From contig OX637343.1 in assembly GCA_951799405.1 (NCBI GenBank), positions 13,742,524 to 13,806,523 of the forward strand: a stretch of 64,000 bases of DNA, read 5' to 3'. The DNA is from Agapetus fuscipes. Taxonomy: Eukaryota > Arthropoda > Insecta > Trichoptera > Glossosomatidae. Every line of letters starts with the position of its first letter. Position 1 is the first letter of the stretch. Both the position numbers and the translations under genes were made by a program. Below are positions 10,055 to 61,292 of this stretch, piece by piece. Under the pieces are notes generated by a model. The model was not told the DNA's origin. It did no database searches and saw only the letters and a list, made by a program, of their open reading frames with translations.

Positions 10055-11356
10055 AGATATACTATGGTATTCACGGTGACCTATTGAGGTGGATTAGTTC
10101 ATATTTAAGCGATAGACTTATGACAGTAACTCTTAATGGGTTTAAATCAGAATACGTGTGTGTTACGTCGGGGGTACCCCAGGGTTCTGTTCTGGGGCCT
10201 CTGTTATTTCTAGCTTTCATCAATGACATAGGAAATTGCTTCATTCACTCAGATTTTTTACTATTTGCAGACGATCTCAAAATTTATCGTACCATAAGAA
10301 CTGAGGAGGACGCTGTTTTGTTGGAAGAGGATCTCGGTAGGGTCCATGACTACTGTGTTTGCAATAGATTGGAACTAAATCTGAAAAAATGTTTTTCCAT
10401 ATCCTTCACTAAAAACAAAAACATTATTTCTCATAATTATGCGATTGCTGATACCATGCTGCAACGACTCGACTCGGTAAAGGATCTTGGTGTTATCTTT
10501 GACTCCAAACTGCATTTTGACGATCACATCGATAAGATTCTAACACAATGTAACAAAATGCTTGGTTTTATCCTAAGGGTGACCAGGGAGTTCAGAGATC
10601 CCACATCTCTTATGACCTTGTATGTCTCACTTGTACGCTCTCGGGCCGAGTATTGCTCCCCAGTATGGAATCCCTTATATGACAAATATAACGTTGCATT
10701 GGAAAAAATCCAACATAAACTAATACGAATTGGAAATCACAGATTCGGAACATCCCGTTTCAATGACTTAATAGACCTCTCGTCGAGGCGTGAACTTGCA
10801 GATGCCTGTATTCTACGCAGAATTTGTATGTCTGCACTAGACACACCCCTATTACTGAAATTGATAGACTTCGCGGTCCCAACAGTTAGACGATCATTTT
10901 GGCCCTTTCACATTAAGCGTCACGTTACCAATGCAGGTTTGCGAAATCCTCTGCTAAGAATGACTAAAAATTATAACAATAAATTTAAAGATGTCGATCT
11001 GTTTCACGGTAGTTCTAATTTATTTAAAAAATCAATTTTAGCTATACTTGAGCAGTGAGTATCCCTTCCCCTTCCCCTTCCTTTCTTCCCTACTACCTAC
11101 TTCTATTTATATTATTTTATTATTGTTGTTTGAATTTTTGAGTGTTGTATTCCGTTTTAAAAAAAATGTTTTTATCCTTAGTATGTAAGTGAAATTATTT
11201 TGATATTTTTGTGTGCTTTTTTTATCACATTGTATTACGCTTACACCGGTAATGGGGTGCAACATGATTTCTTCTTTTGTTAATTTGCCTAATGTGCTAT
11301 TTTTATGTTGTGCCTGTTGGTGTGTGATTGTGAATAAATAAATAAATAAATAAATA
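10055..11356 (+). mobile_element. Jockey-like LINE, 5'-truncated
   Basis: Carries the C-terminal half of a reverse transcriptase (10084-11058), a pyrimidine-rich 3' UTR, and a 3' tail of about five AAAT units ending at 11356. The 5' part of RT, the endonuclease and any ORF1 are absent, as expected for truncation during target-primed reverse transcription. Confidence 0.85.
10084..11058 (+). pseudogene. Jockey-like reverse transcriptase, C-terminal fragment
   Basis: About 324 residues, uninterrupted. It opens in the RT palm (YGIHGDLLRWISSYL just upstream and across the first codon), then motif B SGVPQGSVLGPLLF, the catalytic box LLFADDLKI, and the LGVIFDSKL block typical of Jockey-group LINEs, followed by the usual C-terminal region (ILEYCSPVW-like). 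Motif A and everything N-terminal are missing, so it cannot act alone. The frame is still open, suggesting a fairly young insertion. The first Met is simply the first in the open frame, not a natural start. Confidence 0.85.
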
Positions 11357-31077: not shown

Positions 31078-32278
31078 GTGAAAGGCCCATATAAGCCCGT
31101 CATAAAGGAATTAAAGAATGGGAAAGCTGCAAGTGTGGATGGTGTGAGACCTGAGATGATGAAAGCGGGGGGAGAATGTGTGATTGAATGGATGAAAGAG
31201 CTTTGCGAATTGTGTGTTAGTGTCAAGGAGGTTCCATCGGACTGGAGAGAGGCGGTCATTGTGCCAATTTACAAAGGTAAAGGTGACAAAAAAGACTGCC
31301 GTAACTTCAGACCGATTAGCCTTCTTAGTGTGCCAGGTAAAGTGCTATGCAAGATTCTTATCCATAGGGTAAGATTATCCACCCAGGAGAAGGTCTCAGA
31401 TATAAAATCTGGCTTTATGCCGGAAAGAGGTTGCGTAGACCAGATATTCGCGCTTCGACAGATAGTCGAAAAACAGCTAGCCGTAAATAAAAAGGTCTAC
31501 GCGGCTTTCGTAGATCTTGAGAAAGCCTTCGACTCGGTGGATAGAAGTATGATGTGGTGTGTGCTTGAGAGGTATGGTGTGAACAAAGCACTTCTGAACG
31601 CGATACGCGCCATCTATCTTAATAGCAGGGCGTGTGTCAGGGTGGATGGAGAATACAGCGAGTATTTTAATGTGTACAAGGGTGTGAGACAGGGTTGCAT
31701 AATGAGCCCATGGTTATTCAATATAATCATGGATCATTGTGTTAAACAAGCGAATCTGGAAGGGCATGGCATACAGATTGGAGAGAGAAAAGTCGGAGTT
31801 CTGCTTTATGCTGATGACGCAGTATTAATTGCTGATTCAGCAGCGGAACTTCAGGCAATGCTCTCTAGTCTGAACCATGCTCTGTGTGTGAACAAGTTGA
31901 AAATTAATGCAAGTAAGACGAAAGTACTGATTTTTGACAGAATGGATGAAAATGAAGAATGCACGCTCATGTTGAATGGTACGAAAGTTGAAATTGTGGA
32001 TGAATTTAGATACTTGGGAAGTATGTTTGAGAAGAATGGAAAGATGACAAGAGAACTTGAGAATAGGATGTGTAAGGGCAAGCAAGTGGTCGGTGCAATA
32101 GGAAGAATAGCAAAGAACAAGCGATTGACGATGGATCTGAGAATGGCGGTACACAATGGCATATTGTTACCGACTTTGATGTATGGAAGTGAAGCATGGA
32201 CAGTGAATGATAGCGAAATGAGTAAAGTATGTACGGTGGAAATGAAGCATTTGAGAAGCATGACAGGAAAAACTCTGA
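31078..32278 (+). pseudogene. LINE reverse transcriptase, part 1 (split by Harbinger)
   Basis: About 400 uninterrupted codons beginning inside the RT fingers: NGKAASVDGVRPEMMK, NFRPISLLSVPGK, motif A YAAFVDLEKAFDSVDR, motif B VRQGCIMSPWLF, the catalytic box LLYADDAVLI, motif D KINASKTKVL, then RYLGSMFEKNG and LMYGSEAWTV. The endonuclease and N-terminus are missing. The frame is interrupted at 32278 by a 3.58 kb transposon and resumes at 35859. Without the insert and one TGA duplicate, the frame reads through. I do not assign the clade; the RWFGHVERM-type C-terminus is shared with the fragments at 13341, 22976, 29235 and 56725. Confidence 0.88.
32276..32278. other. Harbinger target-site duplication TGA (left)
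   Basis: TGA here and at 35859-35861 flank the transposon. Removing one copy plus the element restores the LINE frame (ACT CTG AGG GAT). Confidence 0.85.
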
Positions 32279-32360
32279 AGCAGAGCATACACGGTCAATA
32301 ATACTGACAGTAGGTATTGATAAAAGTACTGAAGGTGCCCTTCTTCAGTATTTTCTGTGA

Positions 32361-32476: not shown

Positions 32477-34396
32477 ATGGATAGAGCCTGTTTGGCAATA
32501 GTTATAGCTTCTGCTGTTGTAAAGAAAAGAAAAAAAAGAAGAATATGGGTTAAGGATTGGCTGTTGGAAAGAGACAGGTACACCCATTTAAACCTATTGA
32601 ATGAAATAGTAGTTAAAAATCCTGCAGATTTCAAAAATTATTTTCGAATGAGTGAAACAACGTTTTTAACTTTATTGGACATGGTTTCACCTCATATTAA
32701 AAAGCAAGACACTAATATGAGACAAAGTATCAGTCCAAAAGAGCGACTCGCTGTTACTTTGCGATACCTGGCGACAGGAAGAAATTTTGCTGACCTCAAG
32801 TTCTCAGCATTGATTTCCCCAGCAGCAATTAGTTCAATGATAATTGAAACATGTGAAACTCTCATCTATGTGCTTCGAGATTATATCAAGGTAAGTTGAA
32901 CAAAAAAATTCAATTAGTAAAATATTTTATTAGTATGTATAGGCATTTATACACTTTACAAAATTTTATTTTATTCACAAAATGTATGATAGTAGTCCTT
33001 CAAGTTATTTTTTGATGAAATGCCGTTATCATCGATTGGATCATAATTGTTATTATTGTTTAAAATCATAATTTTTTGGGGGGAAGTGGTGGTGGTAGAA
33101 GGGACACGGACTGGACTAGGAAGGGTTCCGTTCAGTATTTGGGAAGGATTTGATGAATGGACTGGACTAGGAACGGTTCCGTTCAGTATTTGGGAAGGAT
33201 TGCGGCTCGTTGATTTTAACGGAGTTGTGATGCAGATTCCCCATTGTAGCCTCAAATAAAATGTCGTTTATGGCCTTTTCGGCAAGTATTTTTTGGGTCG
33301 CATCCAAATTTTGCAATTTTGTAGCCCAAACTTTCGCTAAGTTAAGATTGTAATCTCCTTCTTTTTCCTTGGTCAGGTACTCACACGCTAAATTCAGCAG
33401 CTCTGATTGTTTATTACATTTTTTTTGTTTTTTGGATTTTCTGTTGTAATTTATTGAAGTCGAAGGCTGAGTGATAACATCGTCCTCTGGAATTATGTTT
33501 GTAGTTTCTTGAGCCTAAAAAATAAAACAAGAGTTAAAAAATTCCTCGATGTTCATATTTCATGCTTTAAAAATGATTGACATTCTTTGTAACTAATTAC
33601 AGCAAATTTTTATTACTACTAATAATAACAATCTTATTATTATTTAAAAAATATTTTTTTTTTTTTACAGCTTCCCTTAACAGAAGAGGAATGGTTATTA
33701 ACTGCAGCAGAATTCAGCAAGAACTGCCACTTTCCTACTTGTCTCGGAGCTCTTGATGGAAAGCATATCGCCATAAAAAAACCGGCTAATACCTCCTCTC
33801 TGTATTATAATTATAAAGGACACTTTAGCATTGTTTTAATGGCATTGGTCAATGCAAATAAGGAATTTATAATGGTGGATGTAGGAGCTAATGGTAGGAT
33901 CTCCGACGGTGGGGTCCTCTTTTATACAAAATTTTGGGATTTGTTTCTAAAAAAGCAATTGCATATTCCACCTCCCACAAAGTTACCAGGTTCAGAGGAT
34001 TATTTTCCTTACGTTTTTGTGGCAGATGAGGCCTTTGCTTTGCACTGCAACCTTATGAAACCATACCCTCAAAAAAAATGTACAAAGGAGCAAGATACTT
34101 TCAATAAACGACTGTCCACAGCTCGATGTGTAGTCGAAAATGCCTTTGGCATTCTCGCATCAAGATTTGGTGTGTTTCAAAAGCCAATAAATCTTGGTCC
34201 TGACAAAGCAACAAAAATTACACTAGCATGCTGCTATCTGCATAATTACTTAAAAAAGGAATCTCTAAACTTTAGTGCACAAAACGAAATTGAAAGCATA
34301 GATGTAGGGGCTAGTCTTCGTGAAGAACATAGTAGGAATGCAAGCGACGCAAAATCCACAAGGGATAAATATTGTACATATTTTAATCTTACATAA
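32477..34396 (+). CDS. Harbinger transposase (2 exons)
   Basis: Cuts and rejoins the element's ends in the nucleus, normally with the MADF partner. Exon 1 is 32477-32890 (donor AAG|GTAAGT), exon 2 33671-34396 (acceptor TTTTTTACAG|CTT); both meet in phase 0, giving 379 residues, usual for this family. Exon 1 holds the N-terminal helical region (FRMSETTFLTLLDMV, RLAVTLRYLATG). Exon 2 holds the DDE nuclease: LGALDGKHIAI (Asp 167), YYNYKGHFSIVL, NGRISDGGV (Asp 217), FVADEAF (Asp 257) and VVENAFGILASRF (Glu 294). No stop or frameshift. The 780 bp intron contains the last exon of the antisense MADF gene. The start is the first Met of the open frame, ~200 bp inside the left end. Recognition is by family motifs; splice sites are inferred from consensus and frame. 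Confidence 0.9.
33117..33205. repeat. 54 bp tandem duplication at the MADF gene 3' end
   Basis: GGACTGGACTAGGAA(G/C)GG plus TTCCGTTCAGTATTTGGG occur twice in tandem. The MADF stop codon (33167-33169) falls in the downstream unit, so the duplication sits at the 3' end of the reading frame. Confidence 0.7.
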
Positions 34397-36240: not shown

Positions 36241-36278
36241 TATTACCCATTATTTTTTTTTACTTAAACTAAACATAC

Positions 36279-36794
36279 TGTTATGTAAATATAAATATTG
36301 AAATAAGTATGGGTAGTTATAGTGTTATGTAAATATAAATATTGAAATAAGTATGGATAGTTATAGTTATAAGAATCCTCAAAAGTATTGGTAGGTAAGA
36401 TCGATAATTATGTATAAGTGTAGAATTCTCTAGGCTAAGTAGGTATTTGTTATAATTATAGGAATACTGTATTGCATTGGTAGGTAGGATTTTGGTTGTG
36501 TCTAGGTAGTACGTGAAACATCGAGAAGTAATAATTACTCTGGAACCTTCTAGCAACTATAGGTCTAGATTATACTGCTCTAAAGAGTATAAAGGGTGCA
36601 AATGGCCTGCAGAGCGGCCAGTATCATAGAGACTTACAAACACATCGAAGTCATCTGATCAGTGAACCAAAACCAAGTGGAATAATCGAGAAAGTAGTGT
36701 GAAAATAAATTTTGTAACTGTGTAAAATAAATAACTATTGAAGAAGACCTGTGTATTTTTAATTTGAAGACAATTGAACCCTAATTTCGTAACA
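36279..36794 (+). repeat. 5' LTR
   Basis: Begins TGTTATGTAAAT and ends TTTCGTAACA (TG...CA). Its first 44 bp are tandemly duplicated (36279-36322 and 36323-36366, one difference). The ATAC duplication flanks the first copy, fixing the outer edge there. Confidence 0.96.
36588..36618 (+). promoter_or_regulatory. Probable LTR core promoter
   Basis: TATAAAG at 36588-36594, with a CCAGTA initiator-like sequence ~30 bp downstream (36618). The same arrangement is in the 3' LTR near 43368. AATAAA motifs further on (near 36703 and 36727) could serve 3'-end formation. Confidence 0.5.
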
Positions 36795-36796
36795 AT

Positions 36797-36814
36797 TGGC
36801 GTCAGGTGCGGAAT
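36797..36814 (+). other. Probable primer-binding site
   Basis: TGGCGTCAGGTGCGGAAT starts two bases after the LTR. TGG pairs with a tRNA CCA end; the reverse complement ends ACCTGACGCCA, which could fit a leucine tRNA, but I cannot confirm which. Confidence 0.6.
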
Positions 36815-37470
36815 TGTCAAGAAAAATTAAGATCTTCTGTCTAAAAATAAATAAAATAAATTAAATAGTGTTAAAATGAACTTTATTCAAATTGAACTTT
36901 GTGTGAACTGACTTTTGTGAAAACAAGTGTTTAAATAAATTTTTGTTAAAAGAAAAGACGCAAAAGCAAGTTGCTTATAAATTCTGGAACATCATATGGA
37001 ACATAATTCTGGACATAATTCTGGACATAACATAATGACTATTTTACCGCATTGAGAAAGTCATCAAATTGGACCATAGTTTTTTTATTATTGTGTGTGA
37101 TTAAAAAAAATAAAATAAATAAATAAAAATCTTGAAAAATATTACAAAAGAACGTTCCAGATTCATCGAGAAAAAGTTTTTGAATAACTATCCTTTGTTT
37201 ACAAGTGTGTGAATGTACATTAACTACCTACCTGTGTGTTTGAAAGACTTGAGACGAAATAAATAATTATGTACTATCAGACATTATTATGTTAAAAAAA
37301 TATTGGTGAATTAAAAATAAATATTAAAAGACAGTACCTACCAATCAGTGTAATCAGATAAATTATTATTTTGCTAAAGTACGTATTCAAAACAGCTATA
37401 TATATAAAACTCAAAACTTGTATTAAATAAATTTAAAAATATTTTTGTTTTGAAGTAAATTTTAAAAAAA
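36815..37470 (+). other. Gypsy 5' leader
   Basis: About 650 bp, very AT-rich, without a long frame; presumably holds packaging signals. Confidence 0.5.
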
Positions 37471-38841
37471 ATGGCAACCAAAGTGAACATCAAGGACCTC
37501 AAAGTCACTGAGCTTAAAAATGAGCTTCTGGAGAGGGACCTGGAGACCTCAGGAGGGAAGGCGGCCTTACAGGCACGCCTCATGGAGGCCTTAGAACAGT
37601 CAGGCGAAGACCCGGCATATTTTGTCATGGCGTCTGGAGGGGACCGCGCCTTGGACGAGCTAAACCTCAGCATCACCGGAAACTTCACTTCCATGGAGGA
37701 AAAGCTGAAAGGGGAGATGGCTGACAACGCCAAGACCCTGAAAGTGGAGATGGCTGACAACGCCAAGACCCTGGAGGAGAAGATGGCTGACAACGCCAAG
37801 ACCCTGGAGGAGAAGATGACCAGCAACCTGACCGGGCTAGAGGAAAAGATGACCAGCCTGAAGGTGGAGATGGCTGACAGCCTCACTACCCTGAAGGAGG
37901 ACCTCAATAAGAATCTCACAACCCTGAAAGGAGAAATGGAGGAGAAGATGACAACCAACCTCTCGGCCCTGAAGGGGGAAATGGAGACTCGGATGTCAAA
38001 CCTGGAAGACCGTCTGCGTGCCGAGCTGGCTGACAAGTGCCAGATGGAGTCCACCAGGATATCCCCCAAAGGCCTTCACGACGAGATCGAACAGGGATGC
38101 TCAACTCCAACCAGGGTCACTAGAGGGGATGACGACCCTTCGCTGGCGAAGCACAACCTTCCGACCTTCGACGGGAAGACGTCGTGGGAGGAGTATTTGA
38201 CCCTCTTTGAGACGGCTGCCATGATGGGAGCCTGGAGCCAGCAGAAGAAGGCTTCGGTTCTCAGCCTGTCGCTCCGAGGAGACGCTCTCAGGGTCCTGCA
38301 GGCCATACCCCTGGACAACCGTGGTGACTTTGGGCAGCTGAAGCAGCGCTTGGATATGCGCTATGGCCACAAGTGCTTGGAGCAGCTGTACAAGTCACAG
38401 CTGAACACAAGGGTGCAGAAGCCCAACGAGAGCCTCCAGGAGTTTGAGATGGACATCGTCCGCCTGGTACGAGACGCTTACCCGACAGCCTCCGACGACA
38501 TCTGTGAGAGCTTGGCAGTGGATAAGTTCCTGAACGGGTTGCGGGAATGGGAGACGCAGCAAGCCGTAAAACTGGCCCACCCCAAGGCGTTGAACGAGGC
38601 GCTAAGCCAAGCTCTCGAGTTTGAGGCTGTCAAACAGTCCATCAGGGGCCACGCCAGGGTTCGTGCAGTCGAGGCAGAGGAAGTCAAGCTACCAACAACC
38701 GAAGAGTTAATTGAAAAAGTGCTGGAACGTCTGAGACCTCGAAGACGAGACCCACGCTGCTGGAACTGCGGACAGCTGGGCCACCTTAGCACCAAGTGTC
38801 CCAAGCCTCAGAAACCCAGAAAACAGGCTGCGGAAAACTAG
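37471..38841 (+). CDS. gag: Gypsy Gag polyprotein with SAP-like N-terminus
   Basis: Structural protein that forms the cytoplasmic particle and binds the element RNA. 456 residues. Residues ~8-42 read as a SAP motif (LKVTELKNELLERDLE...GGKAALQARL), a DNA/RNA-binding helix pair known from chromatin proteins. Residues ~73-187 are a coiled coil of 11-residue repeats (EMADNAKTLKV, EMADNAKTLEE, KMADNAKTLEE ...). Residues ~228-390 form the capsid-type region (LPTFDGKTSWEEYLTLFE ... MRYGHKCLEQLY). The zinc knuckle is C430-X2-C433-X4-H438-X4-C443 after an Arg-rich run. The ATG follows an A-run and is the first in a long frame. Pol overlaps the end in the -1 frame. Intact. Confidence 0.93.
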   Translation: MATKVNIKDLKVTELKNELLERDLETSGGKAALQARLMEALEQSGEDPAYFVMASGGDRALDELNLSITGNFTSMEEKLKGEMADNAKTLKVEMADNAKTLEEKMADNAKTLEEKMTSNLTGLEEKMTSLKVEMADSLTTLKEDLNKNLTTLKGEMEEKMTTNLSALKGEMETRMSNLEDRLRAELADKCQMESTRISPKGLHDEIEQGCSTPTRVTRGDDDPSLAKHNLPTFDGKTSWEEYLTLFETAAMMGAWSQQKKASVLSLSLRGDALRVLQAIPLDNRGDFGQLKQRLDMRYGHKCLEQLYKSQLNTRVQKPNESLQEFEMDIVRLVRDAYPTASDDICESLAVDKFLNGLREWETQQAVKLAHPKALNEALSQALEFEAVKQSIRGHARVRAVEAEEVKLPTTEELIEKVLERLRPRRRDPRCWNCGQLGHLSTKCPKPQKPRKQAAEN

Positions 38842-41800
38842 AAAGGGTTAATGGGAAGGGGCAACCGTTGACCCGCGCTGGAGAGGCCCTGAAATCTGCT
38901 GCTACTGTCGCAACTGTGAGAGGAAAAGCCAGCAGCATTTTTATCAATGGCATAATAGATGGAGTAACCCGTGAACTACTGGTGGACACGGGAGCAACCA
39001 GGACAATTCTGAGACGCGACATAGTGGCACGAGGTAAGCAGATTGCACCAACAAAGTGGTCTCTGCACACCGCCACGGGAGAGTCAGCACAGGTGTATGG
39101 GGAGACGATTGCCACCTTCCAAATTGGCAGCACCACTTTTGATCATCGGACGTTGGTGGCCAACATTGAAGAAGACGTTATATTGGGAATGGACATACTG
39201 GACAGATTTGGGTGCAGCTTAAATTTAAAAAAAGGTGCCATTAAAATTGAAAATGAAGAAGTCATCCTGCAAAGACGGAAAGAACTGGCTGCACGTGTGA
39301 TCCTAGCCAAGAATACCGAAGTGAAGGGGCGATCCGAGATGATAGTGAGTGCCCGCCTGGATTCCAGTAGTACAAATGACCAAATCTGTATGATAGAACC
39401 GGAGAACATGGACAATGTTAACAAAGGAGTCATGGTGGCAAGAACAGTGATTCGCGCGCAGGAGACCATTCCTGTCAAGATCATGAATGTGAACAGCTAC
39501 CCAGTTAAAATGAATGAAGGTTTTGTTTTGGGCAGATGTGAGAGGATAACTTCCATTGTGCAACAGATGACAAACATGACATGCGAGGGAAGAAAATTAT
39601 CGACACAATTGGAAACCCTGGTCCACGACGCTTCCCAAGGTCTAACCGAGGAAAACAGACTTAGAGTGAGGAGTTTGATCTGCCGCTACCAGAACATTTT
39701 CGAGGACTCTAATGGCCGTCTGGGAAGAACCAAGGTAGTGCGACATAGCATAGACACCGGAGAAGCAAGACCAATCAAACAGGCTCCAAGAAGACTACCC
39801 TTTGCAAAGCGGGAAGAAGCCGACAAGATCATCAAAGACATGAGCAAGGATGGCATCATAGAACCATCAAGTAGCCCTTGGACATCCCCGGTGGTACTGG
39901 TGAAAAAGAAGGATGGTACCACGAGATTTTGTGTGGACTACAGACTGCTCAACGATGTTACGAAAAAGGATAGTTACCCTCTGCCAAGGATTGACGACAC
40001 CTTGGACACATTGGCAGGATGCACCATTTTTTCCACATTGGACCTGAAAAGTGGCTACTGGCAAGTTGAATTGGATGCCAAAGATAAGGAGAAAACGGCA
40101 TTCTCGACTGGATCTGGACTTTGGCAGTTCACCGTGATGCCATTTGGCTTATGCAATGCCCCCGCCACGTTTGAAAGGCTGATGGAGAATGTGCTGCGAG
40201 GACTGTCATGGGAAACCTGCCTTGTATACTTGGATGACATAATCATCCTGGGAAAGGACTTCAACCATCAGTTGAGAAATCTGGAGCAAGTTTTCGGGCG
40301 ACTACAAGACGCTGGACTGAAGCTCAACCCGAAAAAGTGTAACCTGTTCAAGAAACAAGTAAATTACCTGGGACACATAGTTTCTCAACGTGGAGTTGAA
40401 GTTGACCCTGCCAAAATCAAGGCAGTAAGAGACTGGCCCGTGCTGAAGGACAAACATGAAACTAGGAGCTTCCTGGGGCTGTGCACTTATTACAGGAGGT
40501 TTGTGCCAAGATTTGCGGACATTGCAAAACCGCTCACCAAGCTTACGGAAGAAAACACTCGCTTCCATTGGAGTGATTCCTGCGCACAAGCATTTGAAGA
40601 GCTTAAGGGAAGATTAACAAGTGCCCCCCTCTTGAGCTACCCACGAAAAGATGGAAAGTTCATCCTGGATACCGACGCTAGTAATGTGGGGATAGGAGGT
40701 GTCCTTTCCCAAATACAGGATGGGCATGAGACTGTTCTGGGTTACTTCAGTAAAGTGCTTTCCAAGCCAGAACGAAATTATTGCGTGACCAGACGAGAGC
40801 TTCTTGCCGTGATAAAATCAGTGGAACACTTCCGCAAATACTTGTACGGGAGAAAATTCACACTACGGACTGATCATGCTGCACTGGTTTGGCTTCTGAA
40901 ATTCAAAAACCCAGAAGGGCAAGTGGCTAGATGGATTGAAAGGCTCCAGGAGTATGATTATGACTCCGAACATAGACCTGGCACGCTTCATCGAAATGCG
41001 GATGCATTATCCAGACGACCATGCGCCAGTGACTGCAAACATTGCAGCAGGATGGAGGACAAGGTAGCAATTGTCCAAAGGACGACCACCGAAGATGAGG
41101 ACTGGCAAGATGAAAAATTGGCGCAAGACCAACTGAATGATCCGGACTTGAAGTATGTGATGGAATGGGCGCGAGAAAGAGAAAGGCCAACCTGGGAAAA
41201 ACTCGCCCCCTTATCACCAACTGTCAAGGCTTATTGGGCTCAATGGGGATCCATAGTGATAGAAGGAGGGCTTCTGAAACGAAAGATCGAGAAGGAAGAC
41301 GGCACACTTAGAAGAAAGCAAACCCTCGTTCCGAGGAGCCGAGTACCGGAAATCCTTGGACTGCTGCATGGAGGAACTTCTGGAGGACATCTAGGCGTTA
41401 AGAAGACGCTGGAGAAAGTGAAAGAGCGATTTTACTGGATCAACTGCAGCGAAGACGTCAAAGATTGGTGTCGAAAATGTGTAACCTGTGCAACGGCCAA
41501 TGGACCGCAAAGGAAAAGGCGAGCACCAATGCGTCAGTACAATGTTGGCAGCCCCTTTGAAAGAATTGCCATCGACATAGTCGGCCCATTTCCTACAACT
41601 GAGAAGGGTAACAAGTACATCATGGTGGTGATGGATTACTTCAGCAAGTGGGTGGAAGCTTACTCAATCCCTAACCAAGAGGCCGTAACCGTGACTGAAG
41701 TTCTAGTTACCGAATTTATCAGCAGGTTTGGCGTACCCCTGGAATTACATTCTGATCAGGGAAGGAACTTTGAAGCTGCTATCTTCCAGCAAATGTGTGA

Positions 41801-43058
41801 GCGGCTAGGGATCTACAAGACCAGGACCACTGCGCTACATCCACAGTCTGATGGAATGGTGGAAAGGATGAACCGTACCGTGGGGAGGTACTTAGCCAAA
41901 GTAGTGTCCAGCCATCAGCGGGACTGGGACCGACATCTGCCTTTGTTCTTATTGGCTTACCGGTCGGCTGTTCAGGAAACGACGAAGAAGACTCCCAGCA
42001 GCATACTGTTTGGGCGAGAAATGCGACTTCCTTGTGATCTCAAATTTGGCTGCAAACCAGGTGAAGACCTAGCCGGAGAAGACTATGTGACAGACCTTCG
42101 CAGGAGGCTGGATGACATCCATGATCAGGTCCGCATGAACATCGGGGAAGCCAGCGATCAAATGAAGGAGCGCTATGACACCAGAGCTGACAGCATGGGG
42201 TACAAAGCTGGTGACTGGGTGTGGCTTTTTGACCCCAAGAGGCGCCAAGGATACTGTCCGAAACTTCAGCGTTCCTGGGACGGGCCGTACGAGATCTTGG
42301 AGCGCATCAACGATGTGGTCTACCGCATAAAAAAGAGACCAAACGGAAAACCAAGGGTCGTGCACTACAATCGCCTCTCACCATACCTAGGCGATAATGA
42401 TGACCAACCAGCCCAAAAAGTACGACAGTGCGTCGCATCCGAAAGATCACCAGCCTTTGAGACGTTTTGGGAGAACGCGAAGGCAGGGCAGAAGTTTCGC
42501 CATGGAGTGACCACAGAAGTCCACAAGGACTTATTTGAGGTCACTAGGGACCACACACTGGCATGCAGTGTACCGGAAGATCTAGATATGTCTAGAGGAA
42601 TTGCACGGGTCTTCCGATACAAATTCGGAGAACCGCAACCCTCGAGCAGCCCGCAAGGAAGAGCTCTGAGACTACCGAAGGGGCGTCAACAAGCATACTG
42701 CCTGGTTGTCCCGGATTCCAGCAACCTGGAAGAGGACTACAAGGCATTGTGGGACGGCCTTGTTGAGCTGCGTGACTACATGTTGGAGGATCAGCAGGCG
42801 CGTCTGGCAATACCGAAGATGGGTGGCGGCCGCGCTAATCGAGACTGGCGGATAATCCGGAGTATGATTGAAGCAGTGTTCTCGGGAGTCGGCATCAGTG
42901 TCATGGTGTGCTGCGAGCAAGCGCAGCCGAGAGCCAGTGGGGAGAAATCCGTGGACTGCCACTTCTTCCTGACCACAGGGTGTCGACGTGGATCAGCATG
43001 CCCCTACCTACACAGAGTCAAGACTGTTCCGGGACAAAACAGTCTAGGTGGGGGGTAG
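38796..43058 (+). CDS. pol: Gypsy Pol polyprotein with C-terminal macrodomain and CCCH finger
   Basis: Processes the polyprotein, copies RNA to DNA and integrates it. The open frame (1420 codons, first codon GTG and not a true start) is entered by -1 frameshift near the gag stop. Protease LLVDTGATRT (Asp 64); RT with FSTLDLKSGYW (Asp 416) and VYLDDIIIL (478-481); RNase H with DTDAS (627), RREL (Glu 668), TDH (693), NADALSR (736); integrase zinc site H858, H865, C895, C898; DD35E catalytic residues D927, D987, E1023; GPY motif 1163-1165. Residues ~1244-1372 resemble a macrodomain of the TARG1/OARD1 type (KDLFEVTRDHTLACSVPED, GIARVFRYKFG, LAIPKMGGG). C1388-X7-C-X5-C-X3-H1406 is a CCCH finger. 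The stop touches the 3' LTR. No broken codon found. Confidence 0.93.
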   Translation: MSQASETQKTGCGKLERVNGKGQPLTRAGEALKSAATVATVRGKASSIFINGIIDGVTRELLVDTGATRTILRRDIVARGKQIAPTKWSLHTATGESAQVYGETIATFQIGSTTFDHRTLVANIEEDVILGMDILDRFGCSLNLKKGAIKIENEEVILQRRKELAARVILAKNTEVKGRSEMIVSARLDSSSTNDQICMIEPENMDNVNKGVMVARTVIRAQETIPVKIMNVNSYPVKMNEGFVLGRCERITSIVQQMTNMTCEGRKLSTQLETLVHDASQGLTEENRLRVRSLICRYQNIFEDSNGRLGRTKVVRHSIDTGEARPIKQAPRRLPFAKREEADKIIKDMSKDGIIEPSSSPWTSPVVLVKKKDGTTRFCVDYRLLNDVTKKDSYPLPRIDDTLDTLAGCTIFSTLDLKSGYWQVELDAKDKEKTAFSTGSGLWQFTVMPFGLCNAPATFERLMENVLRGLSWETCLVYLDDIIILGKDFNHQLRNLEQVFGRLQDAGLKLNPKKCNLFKKQVNYLGHIVSQRGVEVDPAKIKAVRDWPVLKDKHETRSFLGLCTYYRRFVPRFADIAKPLTKLTEENTRFHWSDSCAQAFEELKGRLTSAPLLSYPRKDGKFILDTDASNVGIGGVLSQIQDGHETVLGYFSKVLSKPERNYCVTRRELLAVIKSVEHFRKYLYGRKFTLRTDHAALVWLLKFKNPEGQVARWIERLQEYDYDSEHRPGTLHRNADALSRRPCASDCKHCSRMEDKVAIVQRTTTEDEDWQDEKLAQDQLNDPDLKYVMEWARERERPTWEKLAPLSPTVKAYWAQWGSIVIEGGLLKRKIEKEDGTLRRKQTLVPRSRVPEILGLLHGGTSGGHLGVKKTLEKVKERFYWINCSEDVKDWCRKCVTCATANGPQRKRRAPMRQYNVGSPFERIAIDIVGPFPTTEKGNKYIMVVMDYFSKWVEAYSIPNQEAVTVTEVLVTEFISRFGVPLELHSDQGRNFEAAIFQQMCERLGIYKTRTTALHPQSDGMVERMNRTVGRYLAKVVSSHQRDWDRHLPLFLLAYRSAVQETTKKTPSSILFGREMRLPCDLKFGCKPGEDLAGEDYVTDLRRRLDDIHDQVRMNIGEASDQMKERYDTRADSMGYKAGDWVWLFDPKRRQGYCPKLQRSWDGPYEILERINDVVYRIKKRPNGKPRVVHYNRLSPYLGDNDDQPAQKVRQCVASERSPAFETFWENAKAGQKFRHGVTTEVHKDLFEVTRDHTLACSVPEDLDMSRGIARVFRYKFGEPQPSSSPQGRALRLPKGRQQAYCLVVPDSSNLEEDYKALWDGLVELRDYMLEDQQARLAIPKMGGGRANRDWRIIRSMIEAVFSGVGISVMVCCEQAQPRASGEKSVDCHFFLTTGCRRGSACPYLHRVKTVPGQNSLGGG
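42525..42911 (+). other. Macrodomain-like region of Pol
   Basis: Pol residues ~1244-1372. Blocks recalled from human TARG1/OARD1 line up in order: KDLF..., an ED-x2-M-x2-GIA stretch followed by FRYKFG, YCLVV, a helix with DYKALWDGL, LAIPKMGGG, DW, and EAVF near the end. At the positions of TARG1's catalytic Lys 84 and Asp 125 I see Pro 1306 and Ala 1347, with Asp 1350 three residues on. So, if the fold call is right, ligand binding is likelier than glycohydrolase activity. Based on remembered sequence, not a search. Confidence 0.72.
42957..43013 (+). other. CCCH zinc finger at the Pol C-terminus
   Basis: Spacing C-X7-C-X5-C-X3-H (residues 1388-1406), the canonical CCCH form, usually single-stranded RNA binding. 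It includes CRRGSACPYLH. Only 14 residues follow before the stop. Confidence 0.8.
43046..43058 (+). other. Polypurine tract overlapping the pol stop
   Basis: AGGTGGGGGG then TAG (43056-43058), with the 3' LTR at 43059. Plus-strand priming site by position. Confidence 0.75.
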
Positions 43059-43574
43059 TGTTATGTAAATATAAATATTGAAATAAGTATGGGTAGTTAT
43101 AGTGTTATGTAAATATAAATATTGAAATAAGTATGGATAGTTATAGTTATAAGAATCCTCAAAAGTATTGGTAGGTAAGATCGATAATTATGTATAAGTG
43201 TAGAATTCTCTAGGCTAAGTAGGTATTTGTTATAATTATAGGAATACTGTATTGCATTGGTAGGTAGGATTTTGGTTGTGTCTAGGTAGTACGTGAAACA
43301 TCGAGAAGTAATAATTACTCTGGAACCTTCTAGCAACTATAGGTCTAGATTATACTGCTCTAAAGAGTATAAAGGGTGCAAATGGCCTGCAGAGCGGCCA
43401 GTATCATAGAGACTTACAAACACATCGAAGTCATCTGATCAGTGAACCAAAACCAAGTGGAATAATCGAGAAAGTAGTGTGAAAATAAATTTTGTAACTG
43501 TGTAAAATAAATAACTATTGAAGAAGACCTGTGTATTTTTAATTTGAAGACAATTGAACCCTAATTTCGTAACA
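43059..43574 (+). repeat. 3' LTR
   Basis: 516 bp, identical to 36279-36794 at an exact offset of 6780 throughout. Confidence 0.96.
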
Positions 43575-43578
43575 ATAC

Positions 43579-46947: not shown

Positions 46948-49620
46948 TAATCTAAGTTGCAAACATATATAACATTTGAGATTCATATTACATGCATTCT
47001 TACGAGCAGACATGTATAAGTTCTAATCTAATCTAATCTAAGCTGCAAAGATATATATCATTTAAGATTTATATTAAATGCATTCCCACAAGCAGATATG
47101 TATAAGTTCCCGCTTACATATGCTGCATGTGTACTTACAACATAACAGCCCATTCCAAATGAACATAAGCCCTGCAACTCTTGCCAACCTTCCCTGAAAC
47201 AAAGGTGAATTTGCAAAGTAAACCATTTTTTAAAGTATGGGTGGTCAGCCTCATACCAACCTATAAGTCAAGAAAATTATTTTGTGTATTTCTTTACATA
47301 ATCTAAGTTGCAAAGATACATACCATTTAAGATTCATATTAAATGCATTCCCACACGCAGACAGGTACAAGTTCACGCTTACAAATGCCCAATGTGGACT
47401 TGCAAAATAAAAAAACTAATCTCAAATGAACATAAGCCCTGCAACTTTTGCCGACTTTTCCTCAAACAGAGATAAAATTTGCATGGTAAACCATTGCTTA
47501 CAGTATGGGTGGTCAGCCACATACTAACCTTTTAGTCAAGGAAATTATTTTGTTTAGTTCTATAATCTAAGTTGCAAAGATACATACCATTTGAGATTCA
47601 TATTAAATGCATTCCCACAAGCAGACAGGTACAAGTTCACGCTTACAAATGCCCAATGTGGACTTGCAAAATAAAAAAAACTAATCTCAAATGAACATAA
47701 GCCCTGCAACTCTTGCCGACTTTTCCTCAAACAGAGATAAAATTTGCATTGTGAACCATTGCTTACAGTATGGGTGGTCAGCCACATACTAACCTTTTAG
47801 TCAAGGAAATTATTTTGTTTAGTTCATTAATCTAAGTTGCAAAGATACATACCATTTGAGATTCATATTAAATGCATTCCCACAAGCAGACAGGTATAAG
47901 TTCGCGCTTACAAATGCCCCATGTGGACTTATAAAATAAAAAACTAATCTTAAATGAACATAAGCCCTGCAACTCTTGCCGACTTTTCCTCAAACAGAGA
48001 TAAAATTTTCATTGTAAAACAATCTTACAGTATGGGTGGTCAGCCACATACTAACCTATAAGTCAAGGAAATTATTTTATTAAGTTCTATAATCTAAGTT
48101 GCAAAGATACATACCATTTGAGATTCATATTAAATGCATTCCCACAAGCAGACAGGTATAAGTTCGCGCTTACAAATGCCCCATGTGGACTTATAAAATA
48201 AAAAACTAATCTCAAATGAACATAAGCCCTGCAACTCTTGCCGACTTTTCCTCAAACAGAGATAAAATTTTCATTGTAAACCATTCTTACAGTATGGGTG
48301 GTCAGCCACATACTAACCTATAAGTCAAGGAAATTATTTTATTAAGTTCTATAATCTAAGTTGCAAAGATACATACCATTTGAGATTCATATTAAATGCA
48401 TTCCCACAAGCAGACAGGTACAAGTTCACGCTTACAAATGCCCAATGTGGACTTGCAAAATAAAAAAACTAATCTCAAATGAACATAAGCCCTGCAACTT
48501 TTGCCGACTTTTCCTCAAACAGAGATAAAATTTGCATGGTAAACCATTGCTTACAGTATGGGTGGTCAGCCACATACTAACCTTTTAGTCAAGGAAATTA
48601 TTTTGTTTAGTTCTATAATCTAAGTTGCAAAGATACATACCATTTGAGATTCATATAAAATGCATTCCCACAAGCAGACAGGTACAAGTTCACGCTTACA
48701 AATGCCCAATGTGGACTTGCAAAATAAAAAAAACTAATCTCAAATGAACATAAGCCCTGCAACTCTTGCCGACTTTTCCTCAAACAGAGATAAAATTTGC
48801 ATTGTGAACCATTGCTTACAGTATGGGTGGTCAGCCACATACTAACCTTTTAGTCAAGGAAATTATTTTGTTTAGTTCTTTAATCTAAGTTGCAAAGATA
48901 CATACCATTTGAGATTCATATTAAATGCATTCCCACAAGCAGACAGGTATAAGTTCGCGCTTACAAATGCCCCATGTGGACTTATAAAATAAAAAACTAA
49001 TCTCAAATGAACATAAGCCCTGCAACTCTTGCCGACTTTTCCTCAAACAGAGATAAAATTTTCATTGTAAACCATTCTTACAGTATGGGTGGTCAGCCAC
49101 ATACTAACCTATAAGTCAAGGAAATTATTTTATTAAGTTCTATAATCTAAGTTGCAAAGATACATACCATTTGAGATTCATATTAAATGCATTCCCACAA
49201 GCAGACAGGTATAAGTTCGCGCTTACAAATGCCCCATGTGGACTTATAAAATAAAAAACTAATCTCAAATGAACATAAGCCCTGCAACTCTTGCCGACTT
49301 TTCCTCAAACAGAGATAAAATTTTCATGGTAAACCATTCTTACAGTATGGGTGGTCAGCCACATACTAACCTATAAGTCAAGGAAATTATTTTGTTAAGT
49401 TCTATAATCTAAGTTGCAAAGATACATACCAATCGAGATTCATATTAAATGCATTCCCACAAGCAGACATTTATAAGTTCACGCTTACACATAATGCATG
49501 TTGACTTACAACATAAAAACCCAATCTCAAATTAATATAAGCCCTGCAACTCTTGCCAATCTTCCCTGAAACACAGCTGAAATCTTCAAAGTGAACCATT
49601 TTTTAAACTATGGGTGGTCG
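46948..49620 (-). repeat. Tandem GTR array with higher-order structure
   Basis: Eleven GTR units in one orientation start (at TAATCTAAG, or the longer CTAATCTAATCTAAG of unit 2) at 46948 (partial), 47022, 47299, 47563, 47828, 48090, 48352, 48616, 48881, 49143 and 49405. From 47299 the spacings are 264, 265, 262, 262, then 264, 265, 262, 262: a four-unit block of exactly 1053 bp repeated twice, with the next unit starting at the same offset. Blocks are nearly identical; neighbouring units within a block differ more. The outer units (47022 and 49405) are the most diverged. Confidence 0.92.
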
Positions 49621-50462
49621 ATTTTCTTTTACAAAGGCTGCATGTTTTTATTTTACATGTTTTCCGAATTTTAACGCGAGGAAACTATGCGCAATATACA
49701 CATTCACCAAATGTTAAGGGGTTGGGCTGCGTAGCAGCCAGGGGCAACGCCCCTAGTATTATTTATCATCTTGAAGTTATCAAATTATTTTTATTAAGTG
49801 AAATAAAATTACATTGAAGACAAATCATCAGTCTCGTTAAATTTTTCATCTGACAGTTGGGACACATAAGTAATATTATCAGTTTCATTTATAAATGTCC
49901 TAATAAGGCCTATTGATGAAATTTCCCGCTTCGAGTTTTCAAATAGCCGCCAATGTTTGTAGAAGTGTGTGTGGACATTAATTAACGCACACAGCACAAC
50001 AAGTGGTCCCTGACGTGAGCATGTTGGATCCTGGAGTCCAAAACAACCAGGACGCGGAGCGCTTGTTTGATTTCTTAAGGTTTTGGCAGAGTAAAAAGTA
50101 ACATTTTTATTTTTATTTGTACACGGTGTGCTGTGCTTTCTCTATAGGATAATTATATGTGTAGACATGTCCTCTAAGATTTAATATAAGTATTGACAAC
50201 ATATTGTATACATTAAAATAAATGAAAGCTTATTTGTTTTTATGTAGGCCTTATTAAGACACAGGGTTCCCAATAAGGCCAAAATGCCATTTTAGTTATT
50301 TGTGTTCACAAAAGTGGGATTTTTGTTTATAAAGCAATTTTATTTCATTTATTACAAAGTTTAATAAATAAGTATAAGTATTTCAAATTACCATTGCATT
50401 ATTATTACGAGTATAAGCCCGCTAGTTATGTAATACCAAAGTTAAGGTAGGTCTTATTTGGG
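49621..50462. other. Unassigned AT-rich sequence inside the Tigger-like element
   Basis: No supported gene. An AATAAGGCC-containing motif recurs near 50246 and 50270. Confidence 0.35.
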
Positions 50463-58544: not shown

Positions 58545-61292
58545 TTCTTCTTCTTCTTCCTTAGCCATCTCTCCACTGCTGGATATAGGCCTCTTCCATG
58601 TTTCTCCACTCCTTTCTATCCTGTGCCCTCTGAATCCATTTCCGCCCCGCGACTGGAACAATGTCATCTGACCATCTTTTTTGTGGTCTGCCGACGCTTC
58701 TTTTATCTTCCCATGGTCGCCACTTGAGGATTTTCGTTGCCCATCGGTTGTCATCTCGTCTTGCCATATGGCCTGCCCATTGCCATTTTAGTTTTGCAAT
58801 ACGATCCATGATGTCTGTGACTTTTGTTAGGTGTCTGATGTCTTCGTTTCTTTTTCTATCTTTAAGACTTATTCCCAACATCCGTCTTTCCATGGATCGT
58901 TGTGAGCACTTTAATTTATGGACGCTCACTGCGGTTAGCGAGATGGTTTCTAGGCCATATGTTGTCACAGGGAGGATGCAAGTCTCGTAGATCTTTCTCT
59001 TTAGGTTCATTGGGATGTCTTTATTTTCGAGTATGTGCTTTAATTTTCCAAAAGCTGCCCAGCCCAATCCTATTCGTCTGGGTATCTCTGCAGTTTGGTT
59101 TTCCTTTCCCATTTTGATCTTGTGTCCAAGGTAGATACGAGTATATTCGTTTACAGCCTCTATGTGTTTGTTGTTGATGTTTAGGCTTTCGTTTGTTGGG
59201 CTCATAATTTTTGTTTTACTGATGTTCATTTCAAGACCAATTTTCAGAGAGGTTTCATGCAGTTCTTTGATCATACTCTTCAGCTCTTCGATGTCTTTGC
59301 TTATAAGCACTATGTCGTCGGCAAAACGGAGGTGGTTCAGGTAAACTCCATCAATTTTGATCCCTTTGTTGTCCCAATTCATCATTTTAAAAATATTCTC
59401 CAGGGCCAGCGTAAACAATTTAGGAGATATAGTGTCCCCTTGTCGAACTCCTCGCTTAATGTTTATTTTATCAGTTCTTGTTTCGTCGTCTAGTTTAATA
59501 TCCATTGTGGCATGATCATATATAAATTTAATGAGCCTTGAATATCTGGAGTCGATTCTTGCGTCGTTTAGAGCCTGTATGATAGCCCATGGTTCTACAG
59601 AATCGAAAGCTTTTTTGTAGTCCACAAAAGCCAGATGAATTGGGATTTTGTATTCAGTTGTCTTCTCAATCAGTAAACGGACAGTCTGGATGTGATCAGT
59701 TGTTCCAAAACCCTTTCTAAACCCTGCTTGTTCAACCGGTTGGTACATGTCAAGTTTTTGTGTTAAACGATTTGTTAAGATCTTTGTAAGCAATTTATAC
59801 AGGTGGGACAGTAAGCTTATTGGTCGATAATTCTCCAAATCTTCCGGATCTCCTTTTTTGAATAATAGTACCACTTCAGCATTTTGCCAGTTTTCTGGTA
59901 TGGCTTCTAATTCAATGCATTTATTTAGAAGTATTTTCACGGCTTCATTTAATTTTTTGCAGCCCATCTTTAAAATATCATTTGTAATTTTGTCTTCTCC
60001 TGGAGCTTTATTTTTCTTCATGTATTTTAGAGCATTTTCCATCTCCTCGTGAGTTATTTCTGGTACATCTTCTGATCCCACGTTAAGTATTACGGTATTT
60101 TGTGATTGGTTTATATTTTGTGTTTTAGATGTATATAGGTCAGTGTAGAATTCATGAATCGCTCCAGTGATCTCGGCCTTATCGTTTAATGTCCTGCCAT
60201 TTTTGTCTTTCACTTTAGTAATATTTTTCTTTCCTTCCGCGTTATTTCTCCTTAAAACCTTCATATTTTTGTTTGACTCTATTGTCTTTGTAATAAGCTC
60301 GTTATTAAATTTTCGTAGATCCTTTCTCACCTCTCTTTTGATTGTTTTATTTATTTCTTTATATTCGATGGTGTCTCTGCCCATACTTTTTCTTTTTTCC
60401 ATAAGTGTTATTGTATTTGCAGATAGTTTGTTATTTTTATTTTTCTGTTTAAATGAAAGAGTCTTTACGACTGTTTGAAAATCTGAAGTAATCTTTTCTG
60501 TTAAGTCGTTTAATCCCATGTTGTTTAGATTTGTTAGGGGTTCCAATTTGTCTTTCATTTTTGTATTAAATGTTGCCCTTTGGTGCTTGATCATTTCCAC
60601 TGTGGGTTGTTTTTTGTTCTTTTTATTTACCATATTATATCTCTCAGTCTTAGTGTTTATCTTAAATGTTGCTCTTACTAGTCTATGATCGCTGCCCGTA
60701 TTAAAACGGTTTAAAACTGATACGTCTTTGCAAGTTTTTAAGTTGTCTGTGAAAATATAATCAATCTCGTTTTTTGTCTTGCCATCTGGGCTCTTCCAAG
60801 TCCATTTTCTTTGGTTTTGTTTTTTGAAAAATGTATTTGTACAGTAGAGTTGTTCGCTTTGAAGGTATTCCACGAGAGTTTCTCCTCTCTCATTTCTTTT
60901 GCCAAGTCCGAACATTCCGATATATTCTGGGTCTCCTTGTTTTTTCTCTCCAACCTTAGCATTAAAGTCACCCATTAAGATTGTTAACCTAGCCTTTTCC
61001 ATGTTTTTTGCCCTTGTGATATCTTCATAAAATGTTTCTATTTCTTCATCATCTGCTGTACTTGTGGGAGCATAGGCCTGTATGATTTGTATTTTAAACT
61101 TTTTATTTATTTCCAGGACTACGTATAGTACCCTGGGTGATATATTAATCATTTTAGTTATTTTATTCTTAATGTTTTTATTTATCATGATGGCGACTCC
61201 TCCAGCCGAGGATTGTGAGTTATTTCTAAACAGTATATGTCCTGATGGAAGTGTTACCGATTCTTCTCCTTTTTGTGTACTATGTATATTAT
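58545..61292 (-). mobile_element. RTE-type LINE, 5'-truncated
   Basis: About 2.75 kb. The 3' UTR is almost absent: the stop is followed directly by GAA units. CAGGTATGTATA (58533-58544) and CAGGTAAGTATA (61293-61304) flank it, one mismatch in 12. The single long frame is open end to end, lacking only the start of the endonuclease. Confidence 0.85.
58561..61188 (-). pseudogene. RTE-type endonuclease-reverse transcriptase, N-terminally truncated
   Basis: Nicks target DNA and copies element RNA onto it. 875 codons from the first Met; the frame is open a further ~100 bp upstream (SVTLPSGHILF, SSAGGVAI) to the insertion edge. APE endonuclease: LMGDFNAKVG (73-76), NEIDYIF and GSDHRLV (166-169). 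RT: APGEDKITNDIL, LENYRPISLL, motif A HLAFVDYKKAFDSV (Asp 523), motif B GVRQGDTISPKLF, and FADD at 622-625. The C-terminus carries KWQWAGHMARR and GRPQKRW, as in RTE elements. The first ~50 residues of the endonuclease are missing, so it is probably defective despite no internal stop. Confidence 0.88.

Follow-up and report, generated by a model that had tools for sequence, protein, structure and literature searches.

A TARG1/OARD1-like macrodomain with altered catalytic residues behind the integrase of a Ty3/gypsy retrotransposon of Agapetus fuscipes

What does a retrotransposon encode behind its integrase, once the enzymes needed for replication have been accounted for? We addressed this question in a stretch of 64,000 nucleotides from the caddisfly Agapetus fuscipes (assembly GCA_951799405.1, contig OX637343.1, positions 13,742,524 to 13,806,523; hereafter the window), in which a Ty3/gypsy element with long terminal repeats (LTRs) has a Pol polyprotein that runs on past the integrase. 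Sequence searches with phmmer, structure searches and residue alignment agree that this tail carries a macrodomain of the TARG1/OARD1 type in which both catalytic residues are changed, as a first-pass annotation made from the sequence alone had proposed.

Among PDB sequences, the tail (query 42375-43055, phmmer) matched human C6orf130/OARD1/TARG1 with an E value of 8.3e-11 over positions 42513-42908. The motif blocks that the first-pass annotation had named were found where it had placed them, and in the same single open frame as the rest of Pol (38796-43058, 1420 codons), while the start of the domain moved from 42525 to approximately 42513. Weaker matches came from the NCBIfam DarG model (E 1.6e-5; 24 bits, where the curated cut-off is 250) and from a PHROG labelled as a phosphatase (1.1e-8), which we take to be a macro-type family; no match to PF01661 or any other Pfam macro family exceeded the gathering score in the Pol tail. 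The corresponding domain of a more distant family of elements, which we call family D, matched TARG1 better than the window did (E 2.4e-18) and therefore lends independent support to the homology. A macro fold is predicted by an AlphaFold2 model built with OARD1 rows, in which the predicted confidence (pLDDT) was near 90 across the macrodomain. In structure searches, the top 8 Foldseek rows and the top 6 VIA-align rows from PDB were all TARG1 entries, and alphavirus macrodomains were among the next structural neighbours.

The second question is whether this domain could still function as TARG1 does. Pro1306 (CCG at 42711) aligns with the nucleophile K84 of TARG1 and Ala1347 (GCT at 42834) with D125, and the TARG1 motif TKx(30,35)Px[IL]GxGxD is absent from the domain. 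The domain retains 25 of the 61 columns that are conserved across 90% or more of the OARD1-type rows. Among the TARG1 ligand contacts named in PMC6397177, D20, L21, F22, I44, P118, G121 and G123 (both glycines of GxG) are retained, while S35 is replaced by Pro, T83 by Val, D125 by Ala and K84 by Pro. This pattern indicates that the adenosine and pyrophosphate side of the pocket is largely present and that the distal-ribose and catalytic side is gone. The proposal that the domain is a putative ligand binder fits these residues. Family D has Arg at the place of K84 and Ala at that of D125, a single additional relative (L151) has Pro and Ala there as read from the alignment, and D20-L21-F22, GIA/GVA and GxG are common to the window family and family D.

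The element that encodes the domain occupies 36279-43574 and is complete, and its family has recently been active. Its parts are as follows.

36275..36278: target-site duplication ATAC, left copy
36279..36794, plus strand: 5' LTR of 516 bp, TGTTATG...GTAACA, same sequence as the 3' LTR
37471..38841, plus strand: gag open reading frame with SAP domain, short tandem repeats, gag core and zinc knuckle
37489-37596: SAP domain at the start of Gag (PF02037, E 2.9e-8, above cut-off)
37671-37926: short tandem repeats in gag, after SAP
within gag: gag core (Retrotrans_gag, 5.2e-5, 23.8 bits, slightly under the cut-off of 24.1)
within gag: zinc knuckle (zf-CCHC, 1.7e-5, above cut-off)
38796..43058, plus strand: pol open frame, 1420 codons, in a different frame from gag and with a short overlap
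38943..39206, plus strand: aspartic protease (PF13975, E 1.3e-11)
39900..40382, plus strand: reverse transcriptase (PF00078, E 7e-38)
40569..40955, plus strand: RNase H (PF17919, PF17917)
41328..41828, plus strand: integrase H2C2 zinc domain and catalytic core (PF17921, 1.4e-18; PF00665, 2.6e-16)
42282..42374, plus strand: integrase C-terminal, GPY-type domain (PF22938, 6.7e-11)
42513..42911, plus strand: TARG1/OARD1-like macrodomain, catalytic Lys changed to Pro and Asp to Ala
42945..43013, plus strand: CCCH zinc finger, C-x7-C-x5-C-x3-H (PF00642, E 2.2e-4, 21.5 bits, cut-off 20.5)
43059..43574, plus strand: 3' LTR
43575..43578: target-site duplication ATAC, right copy

The presence of gag and pol, the order protease, reverse transcriptase (RT), RNase H, integrase, the enclosing LTRs and the target-site duplication are those of Ty3/gypsy elements (Metaviridae). 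Pfam gave no chromodomain match in Pol, as a chromovirus would have, and no env gene of the errantivirus type follows pol in the window element; the pol stop codon adjoins the 3' LTR, so that the tail behind the integrase is all the coding space that remains. Baculo_F was seen only in the second lineage described below (L072 and L145). A 44-bp unit opens the LTR and is doubled in the window (36279-36366; LTRs of L009 and L010 compared), and in one copy the two LTRs differ by 44 bp. Elsewhere in the window lie a satellite-like array with units of ~262-265 bp (46948-49638) and other RT frames, one with an endonuclease domain, together with a DDE_Tnp_4 transposase fragment (58561-61188, minus strand; 31078-32301, 10084-11058 and 33839-34396, plus strand).

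How widespread is this arrangement? A search of the genome (618 Mb in 148 contigs) with the 129 residues of the domain gave 1040 candidates, of which 150 were scored; all 150 encode an identical protein over the queried residues, without stops, and approximately 100 of them (hand count) lie in a 1422-codon frame. Perfect 4-bp target duplications flank all ten copies for which both ends were fetched; nine LTR pairs of equal length differ at 6 of 4565 bases, and the tenth pair differs by the 44-bp unit. We also viewed the 3' flanks of 51 copies among L010-L068, 49 of which were readable (L038 and L048, with no LTR end, were left out): the four bases next to the LTR are centred on TA in 49/49 and conform to RTAY in 43/49, compared with 2% RTAY in the window. 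The window family is thus a recent burst with a strict site preference at the DNA level. The integrase lies upstream of the tail in seven of eight young copies compared by DNA.

A second search with an OARD1 protein (P0103, 83% identical to Mytilus OARD1) reached older elements; 150 rows were scored, and 27 were fetched and read. Of these 27, fifteen are akin to the window element: nine window-type copies with tails 92-98% identical to that of the window, two of them with stops (L094 and L095), and six members of family D, with tails ~50% identical. Fourteen of these 15 match across the CCCH finger, the match in L093 ending before it, and the integrase is upstream of the tail also in L081, L083, L148, L149 and L151. 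The integrase-macrodomain-CCCH arrangement is therefore kept in more distant relatives.

These relatives show that the macrodomain is under purifying selection. Against three of the nine fetched window-type copies (L084, L087 and L089), its dN/dS was 0.10, 0.14 and 0.26 (Fisher 2e-8, 0.0013 and 0.0025); against family D it was ~0.16, with synonymous sites saturated. L151, with a macrodomain ~71% identical to that of the window, gave 0.18 (Fisher 1.4e-12), a value that is approximate because this copy looks like a mosaic or recombinant: its 3' part is nearly identical to that of older window-type copies (dS 0.095 in the CCCH part against 0.93 in the macrodomain). Rows out of register were excluded, namely the integrase and linker rows for the older copies and for comparisons within family D, and one RT row.

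The CCCH finger matches both the spacing C-x7/8-C-x5-C-x3-H and the Pfam model above its cut-off in the window, and also exceeds the cut-off in L151 (21.7 bits). The family D finger falls below it (17.1 bits), with the CCCH part 44% identical and the four zinc ligands and their spacing unchanged. For the finger of the window, the best PDB match by phmmer was CPSF30 (E 0.0039), an RNA-binding protein. The first-pass annotation had not noted the finger, nor could it see how many and how young the copies are, the related families or a second macrodomain-bearing lineage whose catalytic residues are intact.

These data raise the central question of what the macrodomain does for the element. Chromatin targeting and action against host defence, both put forward by the first-pass annotation, are hypothetical roles. 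The explanation that we tentatively favour, at rather less than even probability, is that the macrodomain is a non-catalytic reader which, with the CCCH finger, tethers the integration complex to ADP-ribosylated chromatin. Such a reader would have abandoned catalysis and would bind ADP-ribose, poly-ADP-ribose (PAR) or a similar nucleotide ligand in the pocket for adenosine and pyrophosphate, while the CCCH finger would contact nucleic acid. Fused to the integrase, and sitting where other gypsy elements have a chromodomain, the pair could tether the complex to ADP-ribosylated chromatin or chromatin proteins, and the integrase core would then select the RTAY site at the base level. Three features together favour this explanation: the macrodomain immediately follows the C-terminal domain of the integrase, it has lost the catalytic residues but kept most contacts to adenosine and phosphate, and it is under purifying selection. 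The reasoning parallels that for gypsy elements with chromodomains and a Tudor domain (PMC12477816). The strict RTAY preference means that the final site is chosen at the DNA level, and any effect of the macrodomain would thus concern where the complex is brought.

Several observations weigh against a reader. RTAY accounts for the sites at the base level (43/49), and no sign of chromatin targeting was seen, although none was searched for. Without S35, T83 and D125, the domain may bind ADP-ribose less well; in addition, Y150 is Cys and L152 is unaligned, and the excess of retained residues in the pocket (7/10) over those elsewhere (18/47) is suggestive but not significant (p 0.087). The main model was built with OARD1 rows, and a single-sequence control model reached a pLDDT of 50. 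The macrodomain is less constrained than the integrase, both against L151 (dN 0.168 and 0.065, respectively, with an integrase dN/dS of 0.03) and against family D (51% and 80% identity), and copies as young as those of the window family would be identical with or without a function of the domain. Finally, the dN/dS of the CCCH finger, ~0.6 in close pairs, is indistinguishable from neutral, and the finger could indicate an RNA role instead.

Next in plausibility, though on balance doubtful, is counter-defence, in which the macrodomain removes or masks host ADP-ribose on proteins, RNA or DNA of the element, as viral macrodomains do; the alphavirus macrodomains among its structural neighbours are consistent with this. 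The domain would act by masking in the window lineage and by hydrolysis in a second lineage; against counter-defence, the nucleophile and the Asp are gone in the window lineage, family D and L151. The second lineage consists of nine of the 150 scored rows of the P0103 search (L072-L080), elements of another gypsy lineage whose RT is 41% identical to that of the window element. The macrodomain of L072 and L078 is placed not behind the integrase but ahead of its H2C2 domain, after RNase H; in L072, it matches TARG1 with an E value of 1.4e-20, again with no macro match in Pfam, and an env-type gene follows pol (Baculo_F 4.5e-5, 22.7 bits, slightly under the cut-off). S35, T83, K84, D125 and the published TARG1 motif are present in all three env-bearing sequences compared, TK and G-x-GLD are visible in all nine fetched rows, and the macrodomain dN/dS between L072 and L078 is 0.084. 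For this lineage, ADP-ribose hydrolysis would be the more natural reading; against counter-defence stands the replacement of the adenine-binding D20 by Ser in the env-bearing copies. A further env-bearing family (L145-L147; Baculo_F 4.6e-40 in L145) has at the same place a domain ~32% identical to the L072-L080 type, from which the GIA and GxG loops are gone and for which no related PDB match was obtained. It is perhaps a degenerate macrodomain, and its lack of ligand loops suggests that the activity is dispensable there, which also counts against counter-defence.

Slightly behind it, and rather unlikely in our view, is a role in nucleic-acid handling, with the macrodomain and the CCCH finger binding RNA or cDNA and aiding packaging, reverse transcription or transport, and with a ligand other than ADP-ribose. 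CPSF30 as the nearest solved structure to the finger agrees with such a role, as does the loss of distal-ribose residues with phosphate and most adenosine contacts kept; the CCCH homology is, however, short and generic, and any RNA binding is putative. It is improbable that the macro fold is a structural passenger that extends the integrase tail and retains its stability alone, without a ligand. The retention of only 25 of the 61 highly conserved OARD1 positions would agree with a passenger, as would the env-bearing family whose domain, in the place of a macrodomain there, lacks ligand loops, but D20-L21-F22, GIA/GVA and GxG are still shared by the window family and family D despite saturated synonymous divergence. 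An artefact, a chance similarity or a frame that is not translated with Pol, for which the failure of Pfam to find a macro family could speak, is ruled out for practical purposes by the TARG1 matches (E 8e-11 in the window, 2.4e-18 in family D) and by the identical 1422-codon frame of approximately 100 of the 150 scored copies.

Another important question is where the domain came from. The first-pass annotation proposed capture from the host, a conjectural origin, since the trees cannot place the donor. Besides the Pol macrodomains, the trees included OARD1s from databases (14), the OARD1 of the genome itself and TARG1-like proteins of prokaryotes (15; of 39 loci, 16 were used and one was then dropped; L101 was excluded for a stop). 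All Pol macrodomains fell on one side of a branch with support of 77/77 or 53/76 in two trees; a third tree left this branch open, and branches were long throughout. A grouping of the window lineage with the genome's own OARD1 was not rejected (p-AU 0.13 and 0.54 in two trees), nor was a separation of the prokaryotic from all other sequences (p-AU 0.40). The trees would thus fit one or two captures, and an animal or a bacterial donor, alike. In phmmer scores, animal OARD1s come closest to the window family, the older copies and family D, ahead of both the prokaryotic proteins and the OARD1 of this genome; among the env-bearing sequences, a bacterial protein scores best for two and an animal protein for one. 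The genome's own OARD1-like gene, found at three places (L069, L070 and L071), has the catalytic Lys and Asp. Its GxG reads ACG, and it lacks the published TARG1 motif for that reason. A foreign codon signature was considered for the macrodomain and was not clear: measured against the remainder of pol, its codon distance (0.27) is within the range of other pol pieces (0.223 +- 0.031, highest 0.325).

Among public proteins, including eukaryotic ones, none of 1605 Pol-sized candidates had the tail at E<=0.01, but this search needs shared exact words, which makes the absence weak evidence. A 133-aa query found among 11 candidates one near-identical fragment (P0002, 232 aa). P0002 lies on a public 996-base ENA contig with the same Pol tail at 98-99% identity. 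No relative was confirmed in the viral contigs scanned, a set that may lack records from this genome or from very near ones.

Compared with known systems, the window domain resembles TARG1/OARD1/C6orf130 (ALC1-like class) in fold, length and the D-L-F, GIA and GxG stretches, and differs in being 30% identical, in the changes at K84, D125, S35 and T83 and in its fusion to a retrotransposon Pol. The folds of NADAR domains and macrodomains are unrelated. As described in PMC12477816, Ectocarpus gypsy elements carry a NADAR domain, with database matches almost all bacterial, in the N-terminal region of Pol; like the window domain, it belongs to a family of the NAD/ADP-ribose pathway in a gypsy Pol, but to another domain family and at the opposite end. 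The same text reports chromodomains and a Tudor domain behind the integrase of Ectocarpus gypsy elements, and these and the chromovirus integrases likewise have a reader-type domain at the integrase C-terminus, with another fold and presumed ligand, while the window element adds a CCCH finger. Macro domain ORFs are also reported from epsilon-like endogenous retroviruses of fish (Basta 2009, as cited in PMC4977317); these too are retroelements that acquired a macro domain, although they are retroviral, have it as an additional ORF and live in vertebrate hosts. The ALC1 macrodomain, which according to PMC9967889 has no enzymatic activity and interacts with PAR, would share its lack of catalysis with that of the window, judged from residues, but is part of a host chromatin remodelling enzyme. 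Among the titles, abstract openings and passages of open-licence PMC papers covered, including PMC8672886 and PMC2864245, we found no macrodomain in a gypsy Pol; the NADAR domains of Ectocarpus and the macro domain ORFs of fish retroviruses are the nearest reports. LTR retrotransposons with captured domains are known, and the element belongs among them; as far as this search extends, the domain type, its pairing with CCCH and its two positions are new.

The macrodomains at two Pol positions, perhaps two captures, admit a broader possibility, which we consider unlikely but worth stating: ADP-ribosylation could be a contact surface of Ty3/gypsy elements with the host, the env-bearing lineage keeping a working hydrolase that strips host ADP-ribose and the env-less lineage carrying a dead reader, fused to the integrase with a CCCH finger, by which it would have reached hundreds of young copies. 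With so many near-identical copies, insertion sites could be mapped. Gypsy integrases carry chromatin readers such as chromodomains, and the macrodomain would, if the reader explanation is true, add ADP-ribose to the marks that they can read. With the catalytic-looking domain of the env-bearing lineage, ADP-ribosylation as a defence of this animal against retroelements would become testable, and both hint that retrotransposons and ADP-ribose signalling are connected.
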